Assembly (NCBI RefSeq): GCF_933509905.1
Contig: NZ_OW150024.1
Coordinates: forward strand, 1,042,001-1,106,000
Direction of reading: 5' to 3'
Length of the DNA: 64,000 bases
Source: Trichlorobacter ammonificans
GTDB lineage: Bacteria; Desulfobacterota; Desulfuromonadia; Geobacterales; Pseudopelobacteraceae
In this document: positions 10,618 to 54,687 of the stretch, in pieces
Position numbering within the stretch: position 1 is the stretch's first letter
Layout: the number at the start of each line of letters is the position of its first letter
Made by a program: the position numbers and the translations under genes
Notes under the pieces: model-generated
Databases searched by the model: none
The model's input: the letters and a program-made list of their open reading frames with translations, nothing else
Told to the model about the DNA's origin: nothing

Positions 10618-10650
10618 GCCCAGGGCGCCCGTAATTGGACGTCCCTGGGC
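10618..10650 (-). terminator. Strong imperfect hairpin after the 51-residue peptide gene
   Basis: The ends GCCCAGGG and CCTGGGC pair, and the inner CG and CC pairs close a small AT loop. The hairpin starts 25 bases past the peptide stop. There is no U-tract, so termination or 3'-end protection is an inference. Confidence 0.45.
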
Positions 10651-10675
10651 GGCAGGGGGCGAATGGTCGTGTCGA

Positions 10676-10831
10676 CTACTTGCCCGGTGCCGGCTTTTCC
10701 TCCGGCTTCGGTGCGGGTGCCGGCTGTTCGGTGGTGGTCGGCTTGGGGGCCGGCGCCTCGGAGGCAACGGCAACAGCGGCAACGGAAAGGGCAACGAGGG
10801 CGGCAAGTGCGACGGTGTACAGTTTTTTCAT
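10676..10831 (-). CDS. Small exported Ala/Pro/Lys-rich peptide under a sigma54 promoter
   Basis: A 51-residue protein, with the ATG at 10831 preceded by AGGAGA. Residues 1 to about 25 form a clear signal peptide (MKKLYTVALAALVALSVAAV, then AVASEA with a likely cleavage after AxA). The mature part is only about 27 residues of alternating Pro, Ala, Lys, Glu and Thr with no cysteine. No family is recognised. The gene sits downstream of a two-component locus whose regulator contains the sigma54-contact motif. It has its own sigma54-type promoter (11012-11028) and a leader of about 170 bases. The transcript might also act as a small RNA. Confidence 0.75.
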   Translation of the reverse strand: MKKLYTVALAALVALSVAAVAVASEAPAPKPTTTEQPAPAPKPEEKPAPGK

Positions 10832-10938
10832 GGTTCTGTCTCCTTGTATTGAAGTGCGTGGTACTTGATATGCTTCGAAAAACAGGTGTTGAACATCGGT
10901 CTGAATGGGGGGCATCACCTCGCTTTCCGGAAAATGGG

Positions 10939-10998
10939 GGCGGGACTCCGAAGGCGCCGGAGGGGAGCACCCGTCGATGATCCCCGCAACTGCCCGCC
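10939..10998 (-). ncRNA. Candidate structured leader RNA (three-way junction) ahead of the small peptide gene
   Basis: Three compatible helices can be drawn. The closing stem pairs 10993-10998 with 10939-10944 (6 bp, GGCGGG with CCCGCC). One inner hairpin pairs 10946-10950 with 10958-10962, and the other pairs 10963-10966 with 10981-10984. The closing stem would begin only about three bases after the start site predicted from the sigma54 promoter. It does not fit the c-di-GMP or cobalamin riboswitch consensus. GC-rich sequence folds easily, so this is tentative. Confidence 0.3.
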
Positions 10999-11011
10999 GC
11001 TATCCCCTGTG

Positions 11012-11028
11012 TGCACGGCATGTGCCAA
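11012..11028 (-). promoter_or_regulatory. Sigma54 (RpoN) promoter
   Basis: Minus strand TTGGCACATGCCGTGCA has the invariant GG at -24 and GC at -12 with exactly ten bases between them, and differs little from the TTGGCAC-N5-TTGC consensus. The predicted start is near 11001, driving the 51-residue peptide gene. Confidence 0.75.
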
Positions 11029-11135
11029 GGTGCGGTGTTCGAAGGTAACGCTTTAATATGATTGTTGGTTTTTTGATGTGCGCGGTGCGGTGCGGAAAGA
11101 AGAGGTACGGCGTGGTGTATGGATTTTCCTGCGCC

Positions 11136-11151
11136 TGTCGGTGCTGTGACA
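11136..11151 (-). promoter_or_regulatory. Candidate regulator-binding inverted repeat upstream of the sigma54 promoter
   Basis: TGTC, eight bases, GACA, roughly 135-150 bases upstream of the predicted sigma54 start. Enterobacterial GlrR is known to bind TGTC-N10-GACA, so the half-sites match but the spacing is two bases short. Only one copy is seen. Confidence 0.35.
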
Positions 11152-11215
11152 ATGAAACTGCCCGAAATCTTTCGGAAACGGCGGTGTATGATTTTACCTG
11201 CAGTGATCGTGGGGG

Positions 11216-12586
11216 TTATTTCTTGAAATCGCCGGGATTGATCCCGTGCTTTTTGAGCAGGTTGTAGAGGTCGGCCCGGTACTTGCCGGCCAGGGCGGCG
11301 GCATTGCTGATGTTGCCGCCGGTCAGCTCCAGCAGGCGGACCAGGTAGCCGGCTTCGAATTCATCCCGCGCCTGCTTGAGCGGTTTGGGCGTTTCCGCGA
11401 TGCCGACCGATTTTGCAGGAAGAATGTGCCCTTCGGTAATCACCTCCTGCAGGGTCATGGCCACCGCGTACTCAATGGCATTTTCCAGCTCCCGCACGTT
11501 GCCGGGCCAGTCGTGCAGCATGAGGCGTTGTACGGCTGCCGGTGAAAACCCCTTGATCCGCTTCTTCATCCGGCGGCTGTATTTCGTCAGAAACGCCTCG
11601 GCCAGCAGGGGGATATCCTCGCGCCGTTCCCGCAGGGGGGGCAGGGTGATCGGGATGACGTTGACCCGGTAGTAAAGGTCTTCGCGGAACAGTCCCTCCC
11701 GTACCAGCTCTTCAAGGTTGCGGTTGGTGGCTACGATGACGCGCACATCCACTGCAAGGGGGCGTTCGCCGCCAACGGGGTAAAACTGGCGTTCCTGGAG
11801 GACCCGCAGAAACTTGGCCTGGATGGACAGGGGCATGTCACCGATTTCATCCAGCAGTATCGTCCCGCCATGGGCCTGGGCAAACAGCCCTTTCGAGGAT
11901 TTGACCGCACCGGTGAAGGCCCCTTTTTCATGGCCGAACAGTTCGCTTTCCAGCAGCGTTTCCGGCAGGGCGGCGCAGTTGATGGCGACGAACGGCTCTT
12001 CGGCGCGGGCGCTGGCCAGATGAATGGCCCGCGCCATGACTTCCTTGCCGGTGCCGCTTTCGCCGTGGATGTAGACCGTTGAATCGTTGCGGGCGATCTG
12101 GGAGACCACTTCCAGCACCCGGCGCATCGGCTCGCTGCGGGCCACTATATGCACGGCATCGTGCCGTTCGGCCAACAGTCCCTTGAGCCGCCTGATTTCA
12201 CTGGTCAGCCGTCGGCTTTCCAGGGCCCGCTCCACATGGAGGGCAAGCTCCCGGGCGTCGAACGGTTTGGTCAGATAGGTGGCGGCACCGCGCCGCATGG
12301 CGTCAACGGCGCTTTCGATGCTGCCGAAGGCGGTGAGGATGATCACCGGCATGTCGGGAGAGAGCTGGTGCAGTTCCTCCATCAGCGTAATACCGTCCTG
12401 CTCTTTCAGGTGGAGATCGATGACGGCAAGATCGAAGGTCTGGCGACTCAGCAGGTCCCGCGCCTCCTGCCCGGTTCGCGCCGCCGTTACCGCGTAGCCC
12501 AGGGTTTCAAGGCGCATGGCGATGATCTTCAGCAGGTTGCGGTCGTCGTCGACTGCCAGCAGGGTTCCGTGTGTCGTTCCGCTCAT
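11216..12586 (-). CDS. Sigma54-dependent response regulator, GlrR/QseF-like
   Basis: An NtrC-family activator of 456 residues. The receiver domain (1-120) has the acidic pocket AVDDD and phospho-acceptor context LAVIDLHLKEQDG. The AAA+ domain (about 140-380) has Walker A GESGTGKE, the sigma54-contact loop GAFTGA and Walker B GGTILLDEIGDM. A short Fis-type helix-turn-helix ends the protein (ISNAAALAGKYRADLYNLLKKHG). The ATG at 12586 has GAGG upstream and is preferred over an in-frame TTG at 12601. The lipoprotein gene ends 12 bases before this start. The kinase, lipoprotein, regulator order equals enterobacterial glrK-qseG-glrR, where GlrR activates sigma54 promoters. Confidence 0.92.
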   Translation of the reverse strand: MSGTTHGTLLAVDDDRNLLKIIAMRLETLGYAVTAARTGQEARDLLSRQTFDLAVIDLHLKEQDGITLMEELHQLSPDMPVIILTAFGSIESAVDAMRRGAATYLTKPFDARELALHVERALESRRLTSEIRRLKGLLAERHDAVHIVARSEPMRRVLEVVSQIARNDSTVYIHGESGTGKEVMARAIHLASARAEEPFVAINCAALPETLLESELFGHEKGAFTGAVKSSKGLFAQAHGGTILLDEIGDMPLSIQAKFLRVLQERQFYPVGGERPLAVDVRVIVATNRNLEELVREGLFREDLYYRVNVIPITLPPLRERREDIPLLAEAFLTKYSRRMKKRIKGFSPAAVQRLMLHDWPGNVRELENAIEYAVAMTLQEVITEGHILPAKSVGIAETPKPLKQARDEFEAGYLVRLLELTGGNISNAAALAGKYRADLYNLLKKHGINPGDFKK

Positions 12587-12597
12587 CGCTTGTTGCC

Positions 12598-13908
12598 TCA
12601 ATGTCGTTGTTTTCTGTCGATTTCCACGTCCACCAACAGCGCCTGCTCCAGCGTCTCGAGCAGGCTGATCCAGCTTTTTGCCTCCTCCGCGAAGGGGCTT
12701 GCCGGAAACTCCCGCTTCAGGCGGATGAAGGTGGCGTGCGCCCGCTTGTAGTCACGCTTCGGATTGGCGTAATGGAGGTGGATGCGGCCGATGCTGAACA
12801 GGGCCGCATCCGCCGGCGGCTGCTTGGGGGTGCGGCTGAGCACTCGCTGGTTTTCCCGCAGGGCACCGTCGAAATCCTCCCGGCGCAGGAAGGACTGAAT
12901 CCGCTGTAGGTGGCTGTTTCCTGCCTGGACGGCGAACTGCCGCTCCAGCATGCCGGCCCAGATGTGGGCCCCCTCGGCCAGCGGCGTTCGGGGGAATTCG
13001 CCGATGAGCTGCCGGAAATAGTCCCGTGCCGTTGCGTAGTCCATTTCAGGGTTGCGGTGGTCGGCGTAGATCTGTCCCAGGCTGAACAGGGCTGCGTCCG
13101 CTGGCGGCTGCTTCGGGGTGCGCGCGAGCACCTGACGGTTTTCCCGCACCGCCGCCGCAAACTCCCCCGCACGGGTGAGCTGACGCATCCGCTGCAGGTG
13201 GGCACGGCGCTCCCGCCCCGCAACGTCGTCTTCCAGGATGCTGTCCCAGATTCTGCCGTCCTCGGCAAAGGGGCTGCGGGGAAAATCGGCCATGAGCCGG
13301 GAGAAGAAATCAAGGGCTGTTCGGTAATCCCGACGGGGATTGGCCGGGTCGGCGTAGAGCAGCCCCAGGCTGAAGAGGGCCGCGTCCGCCGGCGGGGAGG
13401 CCGGGGAGGAGGTCAGGATTTTTCGGTTTTCCCGCTCCGCCGCCTCAAAGGCTCCCTGCTGGCTCAACTGCTGCATCCGCTGCAGATGGGCCCGTCCCTC
13501 CCGCTCGTCCAGCAGGTCGTTATCAAGGATTCCCCGCCAGATACGGGCATCCTCCGCAAAAGGACTGAAGGGAAAGTCATACAGCAGGCGGGTGAACTGT
13601 TCCCGGGCCATGCGGTAATCCCTGCCGGGATTGCTCGGATCGGCATAGGCCAGCCCCAGGCTGAAGAGGGCGGCATCTGCCGGCACTGTCCGGGCTGTCT
13701 GCGGCTGCTCCAGAATCCGGTGGTTTTCCCGTATGAGTTCTTCGAAATGCCCCTGGCGGGCCAGTTGCCGCATGGTACGCAGATGAGTCTGTCCTTCCCG
13801 TTCGGCCAGCATCGTGCGCAGGGGGGCGCAGGCCGTGAGCAGGGCCAGAGTCAGGCAGGCAATGCCACGATAAAGGTACTGCCCTGTCCCGGTTCGCTTT
13901 CCACCCAC
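12598..13908 (-). CDS. QseG-like outer-membrane lipoprotein made of four tandem repeats
   Basis: A 436-residue protein that starts at GTG 13908 with GGAGG eight bases upstream, overlapping the kinase gene end by 58 bases. A lipoprotein signal is visible (CLTLALLTAC, with lipobox LTAC near residue 27). The rest is four tandem copies of a module of about 95 residues. Each reads roughly HLQRMxQLxRxGxF, then ENRxIL, then PPADAALFSLGxIYAD, NPxRDY, a short FxRLxxxFPxSPFAE and a final IWxxIL. This is TPR-like alternation of helices. In E. coli the equivalent position encodes QseG, a single-module lipoprotein that activates the kinase from the envelope. A sensor-partner role is inferred from position. 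Confidence 0.85.
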   Translation of the reverse strand: MGGKRTGTGQYLYRGIACLTLALLTACAPLRTMLAEREGQTHLRTMRQLARQGHFEELIRENHRILEQPQTARTVPADAALFSLGLAYADPSNPGRDYRMAREQFTRLLYDFPFSPFAEDARIWRGILDNDLLDEREGRAHLQRMQQLSQQGAFEAAERENRKILTSSPASPPADAALFSLGLLYADPANPRRDYRTALDFFSRLMADFPRSPFAEDGRIWDSILEDDVAGRERRAHLQRMRQLTRAGEFAAAVRENRQVLARTPKQPPADAALFSLGQIYADHRNPEMDYATARDYFRQLIGEFPRTPLAEGAHIWAGMLERQFAVQAGNSHLQRIQSFLRREDFDGALRENQRVLSRTPKQPPADAALFSIGRIHLHYANPKRDYKRAHATFIRLKREFPASPFAEEAKSWISLLETLEQALLVDVEIDRKQRH

Positions 13909-15320
13909 ACCCGTCCTCCATGTGCCTGTACGATATGCCTGACAATAGCCAGTCCCAGGCCGGTTCCCGTGTTGCCGCCCGCTACCGACGGCAGCGCCTG
14001 GCGGTACTTCTCGAAAATGATCTCCCGTTCCTCCGCCGCGATGCCCGGTCCCGTATCGCTCACGGTTATACGAACTTCTCCCGGCAGGCTGCGGGCGACG
14101 ATACGGACGGTTCCCCCCGGCGGGGTAAACTTGAGGGCGTTACCCACCAGGTTTCTCATGACCTGCAAAATCCTCTCCGGATCGAGGGACAGAGCGGGCA
14201 GCTCGTCATATTCGCTGTCGAGCGCAATCTCTTTGGCGGCAGCCAGGGGGCTCACCTCGCGCAGTACCTGCGCGATCAGCGGGGGGAGCCGGACACTGCC
14301 GAAATGAAAGGCGAGAACCCCCGACTCCAGTTTGGAAAGGTCCAGCAGGCTGCCCACCAGGTCGATCAGGCGGCTGCTTTCCTCGGCGATGATGACCAGG
14401 AGCTCCCGCTGCTTGTGCGTTACTTCACCGCAGAGCCCCTCCAGAAACAGGTTGGTTCCCTCCCGGATGGAGGTGAGCGGGGTGCGCAGCTCGTGGGACA
14501 TGAGGGCGTAGAAATCCGACTTCATCCGTTCTACTTCTTCAAGTTTACGGCACATGACGTTGAGCGCAGCGGCCAGGCTCTCAATTTCGGGCGGCGCCGT
14601 CAGGCGCAGATCGGCGGTAAAGGCCCCCCGGGCGATCTCCTCGGTTTTTCGTTTCATGCGGGAGAGGGGCAGGGTGATGCTCCGGGTGATGGCAACGGAG
14701 AGCAGAATGCCCAGCAGCAGGGCGATGGCGGTGATCAGCATGGCCACGGTACGGGTTCTGCCGCCGGTCTCCTCCAGCTCATTCGCCTTCTGGAGGATGC
14801 TCTGCTGGCTGAGAGTGCGCAGGCGGGTCAACTCCTCCAGGGTTTCCTGCACCAGCCGTTCCTTTTCCCGGTCATGCCGGACGAGGGGGGTGCGGCCGCT
14901 GCGCTTCAGGGACCTGACCTCCTCCAGAAACAGCTCGCCGTGACGCCGATGCAGTGACCGTATCCGCTGCAACGCCTGCCGGACCTCGCCGGAATCGGCA
15001 CGGGTCTGTGCCTGCTCAAGATACTGCCCGAAGTCCGTGCGGGCCGCCAGATAGCCATCATACAGCGCCTGATCCCGGACGAGCAGGAACTTTTTCTCGT
15101 ACCGGGTCTGGGACAGCAGGGCGGCGCCCATCTCCTTGTTGAGGTCAATGAGCACGTTATGCACCTGGATGATGCGGCCGGTCAGGGCGTGCATCCGGCC
15201 CAGTTGCAGGATAGTGTAGGCGCCGACGGCGGTCGCCATGAGCAGTACGGCGAGGTTGCCCAGCATCAGCCGGGTGAAAATGGAGAGTTTCCTGGTGGCG
15301 GGGGGGCGTACGATGAGCAT
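13851..15320 (-). CDS. Sensor histidine kinase, GlrK/QseE-like
   Basis: A 489-residue membrane kinase starting at ATG 15320. TM1 covers about residues 15-37 (LMLGNLAVLLMATAVGAYTI). A periplasmic helical sensor of about 140 residues follows, then TM2 (VAMLITAIALLLGILLSVAI) and a HAMP linker. The HisKA domain has FYALMSHELRTPLTSIREG with the phospho-accepting His. The ATPase domain has N box VMRNLVGNALKFTPPGG, G1 VSDTGPGI and G2 TGLGLAIVRHIV. It phosphorylates the sigma54-type regulator encoded two genes on. A TTGACA-N18-TAGGGT promoter lies about 50 bases upstream. The signal sensed is unknown. Confidence 0.9.
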   Translation of the reverse strand: MLIVRPPATRKLSIFTRLMLGNLAVLLMATAVGAYTILQLGRMHALTGRIIQVHNVLIDLNKEMGAALLSQTRYEKKFLLVRDQALYDGYLAARTDFGQYLEQAQTRADSGEVRQALQRIRSLHRRHGELFLEEVRSLKRSGRTPLVRHDREKERLVQETLEELTRLRTLSQQSILQKANELEETGGRTRTVAMLITAIALLLGILLSVAITRSITLPLSRMKRKTEEIARGAFTADLRLTAPPEIESLAAALNVMCRKLEEVERMKSDFYALMSHELRTPLTSIREGTNLFLEGLCGEVTHKQRELLVIIAEESSRLIDLVGSLLDLSKLESGVLAFHFGSVRLPPLIAQVLREVSPLAAAKEIALDSEYDELPALSLDPERILQVMRNLVGNALKFTPPGGTVRIVARSLPGEVRITVSDTGPGIAAEEREIIFEKYRQALPSVAGGNTGTGLGLAIVRHIVQAHGGRVWVESEPGQGSTFIVALPA

Positions 15321-33142: not shown

Positions 33143-33946
33143 ATGGAACTGGCAAGCTTTGGACTGACCGACGTGGGGCAGGTTCGTTCCAATAACGAGG
33201 ATGCGATCCTGCTGGAACCGTCCCTTGGCCTTTTTGCCGTTGCCGACGGCATGGGAGGGCACCAGGGGGGAGAAATTGCCAGCCGGATCTGCCTGGATAC
33301 CCTGCGGGATTATCTGCAACGGGCGTCCCAAGGGCAGGCGCCGCTGGTGGGGGAGCAGGATGCCGCCTACAGTGCCAGGGCCAACCTGCTGGCCTCGGCG
33401 GTGCGGTTTGCCAACCGGGCGGTCTTTGAAGCGGCCTTTGCCCGGCCTGAATGGCGCGGCATGGGCACCACCGTGGTGGCCATGCTGCAGGATCAGGAGC
33501 GGGCCGTGTTCGCCCATGTGGGGGACAGCCGTGCTTACCTGCTGCGGGCGGGCAGCTTCCGGCAGATCACCCAGGACCACTCCTGGGTGGAGGAGCAGGT
33601 GCGGGCCGGCCTGATGAACCGCGACGAGGCACTGTTTGCCAAGGGGCGCAACGTGCTGACCCGGGCCATCGGCCAGGAGGAAACGGTACAGGTGGATATG
33701 AACGAGCTGGAACTGCAGGCGGGTGACCGCCTGCTGCTCTGCTCCGACGGTCTCTACGGCATGGTCGCTGACGAGGAGATCGCCGCCCTGATCGGCAGCA
33801 GCCCGTCACTGGAGAAGGGATGCCGGGAACTGGTGGCCTGCGCCAACGGCCGGGGAGGGCGGGACAATATTTCGGTGATCCTGCTGGAAGCGGAGGAAGA
33901 GAAAGGGCTGCTGGCGGGGATGCGCCGACTGTTTACGAAAGGGTGA
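33143..33946 (+). CDS. PP2C-type serine/threonine phosphatase
   Basis: A 267-residue PPM phosphatase from ATG 33143, immediately after the kinase stop. Its metal-binding motifs are intact: [65 protein letters not shown] and [13 protein letters not shown]. It should reverse phosphorylation by the adjacent kinase. Its 3' end overlaps the convergent FHA gene by 14 bases. The C-terminus has no membrane segment. Confidence 0.95.

Positions 33947-52999: not shown

Positions 53000-54687
<1,688 letters not shown>

Follow-up and report, generated by a model that had tools for sequence, protein, structure and literature searches.

A candidate sigma54-dependent circuit of GlrR type for a predicted exported peptide in Trichlorobacter ammonificans

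Genes and sites between rseP and tsaB

The stretch of T. ammonificans DNA analyzed here (64 kb in length, hereafter the window) carries a 5-kb module, which takes up the whole space separating rseP from tsaB. Its genes and candidate control elements, in the direction of transcription, are as follows.

13851–15320, minus strand: sensor histidine kinase with HAMP, HisKA and HATPase domains (Pfam), in the position of GlrK
12598–13908, minus strand: TPR-repeat lipoprotein with lipobox LLTAC (Pfam YfiO/TPR), in the position of QseG
11216–12586, minus strand: response regulator of the GlrR lineage, with a receiver, an AAA+ domain containing GAFTGA and a C-terminal HTH (GKYRADLYNLLKKH) (Pfam, NCBIfam, tree and alignment)
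11185–11202, minus strand: enhancer site UAS1, TGCAGGTAAAATCATACA, agreeing with TGTATG-N6-CATACA at 10 of 12 positions
11116–11133, minus strand: enhancer site UAS2, CGCAGGAAAATCCATACA, a tandem copy of UAS1 agreeing at 9 of 12 positions
11046–11058, minus strand: weak IHF-like site, TATTAAAGCGTTA, in the interval between UAS2 and the promoter, with one mismatch to WATCAAN4TTR
11012–11028, minus strand: putative sigma54-type –24/–12 promoter, TTGGCACATGCCGTGCA, of the form GG-N10-GC, with a predicted start near 11001
10832–11001, minus strand: leader of 170 nt, delimited from the sequence
10911–10928, minus strand: leader element of 18 nt, GGAAAGCGAGGTGATGCC, which contains GAGGTGAT and is shared with a related genome (G139)
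10676–10831, minus strand: gene for a 51-aa peptide, MKKLYTVALAALVALSVAAVAVASEAPAPKPTTTEQPAPAPKPEEKPAPGK, with a signal peptide and a Pro/Ala-rich tail (frame statistics, likeness to G139)
10618–10650, minus strand: GC-rich stem-loop, GCCCAGGGACGTCC...GGGCGCCCTGGGC, after the peptide gene and lacking a T-tract

The order kinase, lipoprotein, regulator, with all three genes pointing the same way upstream of the promoter, is that of glrK-qseG-glrR in E. coli. We placed the start of the kinase at an internal ATG that is conserved in relatives, within a frame open from GTG 15371. Kinase orthologs (53–63% identical) adjoin regulator orthologs in G139, G075 and G057. The lipoprotein retains Cys27 in relatives, and here the enterobacterial system differs, since the TPR protein appears unrelated to E. 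coli QseG (no detectable homology; hhalign probability 0.7%).

In a tree of 139 regulators, the window's regulator fell into a 54-member clade together with E. coli GlrR (SH-aLRT 99). This clade consists of two branches, one with E. coli GlrR and one of the window's phylum, so that the regulator, 48% identical to E. coli GlrR, belongs to a sister lineage inside the clade. GlrR was also its best NCBIfam model, at 484.9 bits. As this score lies below the equivalog cut-off of 763, we assign the protein to the GlrR lineage in a wider sense, not to the GlrR equivalogs. The GAFTGA motif, noticed earlier in this regulator, is present as EKGAFTGAVK.

Close orthologs of the regulator (74–79%) were found in only three other genomes among 277 of the class; at a looser threshold, orthologs occurred in 43 of 395 genomes sampled over the phylum. 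rseP and tsaB are adjacent in 12 of the 13 congeners that have tsaB, and in one (G060) their codons overlap. Because the module lies between genes that are neighbors in congeners, the whole block (kinase, lipoprotein, regulator, enhancer and peptide gene) looks like one acquired unit. The nearest congener (G066, locus L203) has a different gene at the rseP–tsaB junction, coding for a 749-aa kinase-like protein, so insertions may favor this spot.

The predicted peptide and its leader

Behind the promoter, the earlier note had described a leader, a tiny signal-peptide gene and a closing hairpin. Each was recovered here, as the 170-nt leader, a 51-codon ORF and the stem-loop at 10650–10618, although the absence of a T-tract means that the last is not a textbook intrinsic terminator. 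The ORF begins with ATG at 10831, 8 nt behind an AAGGAG at 10840–10845, and stops at 10678–10676. Codon statistics favor its frame over the two other frames of the same strand. Together with an N-terminus that resembles a signal peptide, the ribosome-binding site and frame statistics fit a translated, putatively exported ORF. The predicted mature peptide has 27–28 residues, one-third of them proline, and a net charge of zero; being rich in Pro, Ala, Lys and Glu, it is probably unstructured. With a sigma70-like box (TTGACA-17-GATGAT, 10586–10558) in front of tsaB, the peptide gene probably forms a transcription unit by itself.

Searches of Pfam and NCBIfam found no family for the 51-aa peptide. 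Yet G139, a genome from another family of the same order, has the regulator, a UAS, the candidate promoter TGGCATTTGCTTTGC, a leader and a gene for a 72-aa peptide (MKKIFVASLSTLVAVLFAAIAVAA...PAPTPAPTP) in the same order. BLASTP gave no match between the two peptides; their alignment scored above 2000 of 2000 segment-wise shuffles, a likeness so far known from this one other genome and carried by the signal peptide and biased composition.

The two leaders share the 18-nt element. Searched as GGAAAGYGAGGTGATGCC, it occurred twice in 141 genomes, both times in these leaders (window 10911–10928; G139 locus L065, 8733–8750), and a reversed control occurred nowhere. The GAGGTGAT within it is a perfect complement of the anti-Shine–Dalgarno at the 3' end of 16S rRNA. 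No start codon behind the element is conserved between the window and G139. We considered two further readings of the leader and rejected both. An upstream ORF starting from the GAGGTGATG element is not conserved: in the window its frame runs on into the peptide, whereas in G139 it stops after four codons. A riboswitch was set aside in view of the lack of an Rfam match, ordinary folding and the availability of two sequences only.

Could the transcript instead work as an sRNA, whether of the GlmY kind or another, with the ORF secondary or incidental? In enterobacteria, this enhancer geometry serves the gene of the sRNA GlmY, and the leader is long and includes an element conserved in G139. However, Rfam had no family matching the window or either leader, the leader folded no better than shuffles, and the GlmY family (RF00128) was absent from the T. 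ammonificans genome in a search whose E. coli control was positive. Moreover, the ribosome-binding site, signal peptide and frame statistics argue for translation, and an ORF of the same kind is kept in G139. We consider a regulatory RNA of this sort improbable. The earlier note had proposed a sigma54-driven circuit of GlrR type for a peptide, a small RNA or both; the peptide part gains from the regulator's clade, the UAS distances, the shared order in G139 and the insertion as a single block, whereas the RNA part found no backing in the GlmY, Rfam and folding analyses.

The putative sigma54 promoter and two-site enhancer

The –24/–12 element of the earlier note, with GG and GC at ten-base spacing, was read at 11028–11012 of the minus strand. 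It has one mismatch to YTGGCAC-N5-TTGCW. Sites with at most one mismatch numbered three in the 64-kb window against 1.33 expected, and since the motif alone is therefore no better than chance, it was the context of the promoter that we put to the test. The other two such sites, at 54147–54163 and 33315–33331 (minus), are within the number expected by chance. For any one regulator, a site as good as TTGGCACATGCCGTGCA in the 420 bp downstream is expected in ∼0.1% of loci after shuffling (0.04 per 52 loci), and a pattern scan of the T. ammonificans genome found the combination of CATACA with the promoter once. The site at 11012–11028 unites a near-consensus GG-N10-GC with UAS in the range of 80–200 bp upstream.

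These UAS, which the earlier note lacked, are stronger evidence than the promoter motif. They are 18-bp imperfect palindromes located between the stop codon of the regulator and the promoter. With distances taken between the first base of each 18-mer and the –24 T, UAS1 lies 175 bp and UAS2 106 bp upstream; E. coli glmY has its corresponding sites, TGTCGCTTTCTGGCGACA and TGTCTCTTTTTAGCGACA, at 170 and 107 bp. The pattern TGYANGN6CATACA matches the genome exactly at UAS1 and nowhere else. In both copies the right half is perfect and the left half degenerate, so that they miss a strict palindrome filter. Clean TGTATG-N6-CATACA palindromes occupy the same place in G139, L155 and L162, and near-perfect ones in G075. 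The IHF-like site has ∼0.16 occurrences expected by chance in the stretch, by our own estimate. A TGTC-N8-GACA at 11136–11151 was considered as a GlrR site and dropped because its spacing is wrong; the repeated CATACA half-palindromes took its place.

In published work, the sigma54 promoter of glmY is activated by QseF (GlrR) via sites with the consensus TGT-N12-ACA (PMC6075780) or TGTC-N10-GACA (PMC8745638). Set against the first form, with its 6 TGT/ACA letters, one of the window's copies has 5 in common and the other 4. The sites differ in sequence, being TGTATG-like in the window and TGTC..GACA in E. coli glmY. Within the GlrR clade, the recognition helix of the regulator covaries with UAS type: RNRTEFY goes with TGTCGC..GCGACA, KYRADxY with TGTATG..CATACA, and KYRADFYD is found where sites resemble TGTAGG..CCTNCA.

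We scanned 3.3 million strand-bases of loci for a sigma54 site with one UAS at 100–114 and another at 160–191. Nearly all matches were at loci of the GlrR clade: besides the window with its copies, they comprised L155, L162, G075, six GlrR loci of proteobacteria and E. coli glmY, to which a single weak stray was added. A Markov control, in which 285 sigma54-like sites occurred, gave none; because the scored UAS motif was derived from the same relatives, this is a test of consistency and not an independent discovery. In Kushneria (L066, near 5383), the arrangement lies upstream of the kinase gene, as at E. coli glmY.

These data support the identification of a sigma54 promoter with two UAS, as predicted elements. 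Activation by some other enhancer-binding protein is very unlikely: the genome does encode many paralogous regulators of this kind, and related genomes without this regulator have apparently sigma54-driven secreted peptides, but the UAS type tracks the recognition helix of the GlrR clade, and UAS and promoter adjoin the regulator gene in relatives. A chance motif, with the ORF expressed otherwise or not at all, is just as unlikely in view of where the site lies, how the UAS are spaced and what is conserved in G139 and across the GlrR clade, notwithstanding the chance-level motif frequency in the window and a weak sigma70-like match at 11152–11123.

We favor a dedicated module of GlrK/GlrR type with its own single adjacent target, at a probability of roughly 0.78, in which phosphorylation of the regulator would lead through the UAS and sigma54 to translation and export of the peptide. 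The membrane kinase would sense an envelope condition, probably with the TPR lipoprotein in a QseG-like role, and, as is known for the family, would phosphorylate the regulator. From the sequence and the comparative pattern, we infer that the regulator binds both UAS, which lie immediately beyond its gene, and through looping of the DNA activates sigma54 polymerase at 11012–11028, and that the transcript yields the 51-aa pre-peptide. Removal of the signal peptide would release the 27–28 residue peptide outside the inner membrane. There it might adjust the envelope or feed back on the sensor, a rather doubtful final step suggested by the family's role and by the other occupants of the slot behind the regulator.

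The slot behind GlrR-lineage regulators

The GlrK/GlrR system is familiar mainly through enterobacterial sRNAs. There, the target glmY lies upstream of glrK and yields the sRNA, whereas in the window the target lies downstream of the glrR-type gene and its predicted product is an exported peptide; the wiring looks conserved and the product swapped. In the GlrR clade, a good sigma54 site occurred within 420 bp downstream of the regulator in 26 of 52 loci, compared to 1.3 expected by shuffling. A sigma54-like site was also seen downstream of 21 of 85 other enhancer-binding regulators.

Loci of the clade in Betaproteobacteria and others (e.g. L079, L082, L070 and L155) resemble the window in having the regulator, two UAS, a sigma54 promoter and then, often, an exported or envelope-related gene. 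They differ in cargo, which is a BON-domain protein, a glucan-synthesis gene or another. Genes in the slot encode exported BON-domain proteins (L079, L082, L155), an exported EF-hand protein (L074), MdoG (L097), receiver-domain proteins (e.g. L150) and a family-2 glycosyltransferase (G075). Those of L070, L076 and L080 we take to resemble OpgH; Pfam gave no match on the one fragment of these genes that was tested. Near glrR homologues, the promoter–peptide pair was found in G139, and elsewhere the slot holds other genes. G057 has a regulator 79% identical and a UAS, with no such promoter or peptide, which shows that loss or replacement of the cargo does happen.

More tentatively, and at somewhat less than even odds, the GlrR-lineage regulator gene and a fixed two-site enhancer with sigma54 promoter may form a cassette that is portable across phyla and serves exchangeable envelope products (a peptide, BON protein, glucan enzyme or receiver; an sRNA in enterics). 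The product here would then be a Pro-rich exported peptide of a new kind, executing or reporting an envelope response, with the conserved leader element as a second, post-transcriptional level of control. The comparisons suggest that the conserved part is the regulator with its enhancer–promoter of fixed geometry, and that the gene product it serves has changed several times. A circuit with one dedicated target, small enough for complete testing, offers a way to ask which signals GlrK-type kinases respond to, and why small exported proteins are the response in several lineages. The GlrR clade likewise provides a natural series of changes in regulator–UAS specificity. Among open-licence papers, we found no published description of this slot or arrangement behind GlrR-lineage regulators; QseF-like regulators were listed as a class already in 2011 (PMC3162934).

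Other genera of the same family encode secreted Ala/Lys/Pro-rich peptides of 70–120 aa (MKKVLSTIVAALVA...KKAKK...APAAK). Like the window's gene, these are small ORFs with an MKK-type signal peptide behind a TGGCAY-N6-TGC site; unlike it, they have short leaders and Lys-rich tails and often sit beside hslO, and their genomes, G057 excepted, have no close GlrR-lineage regulator. Such a sigma54 site lies 52–63 bp before the ATG in 19 of ∼26 of these loci (L004, L006, L007, L009–L013, L016, L019, L020, L022–L026, L028, L030 and L031), and seven adjoin hslO.
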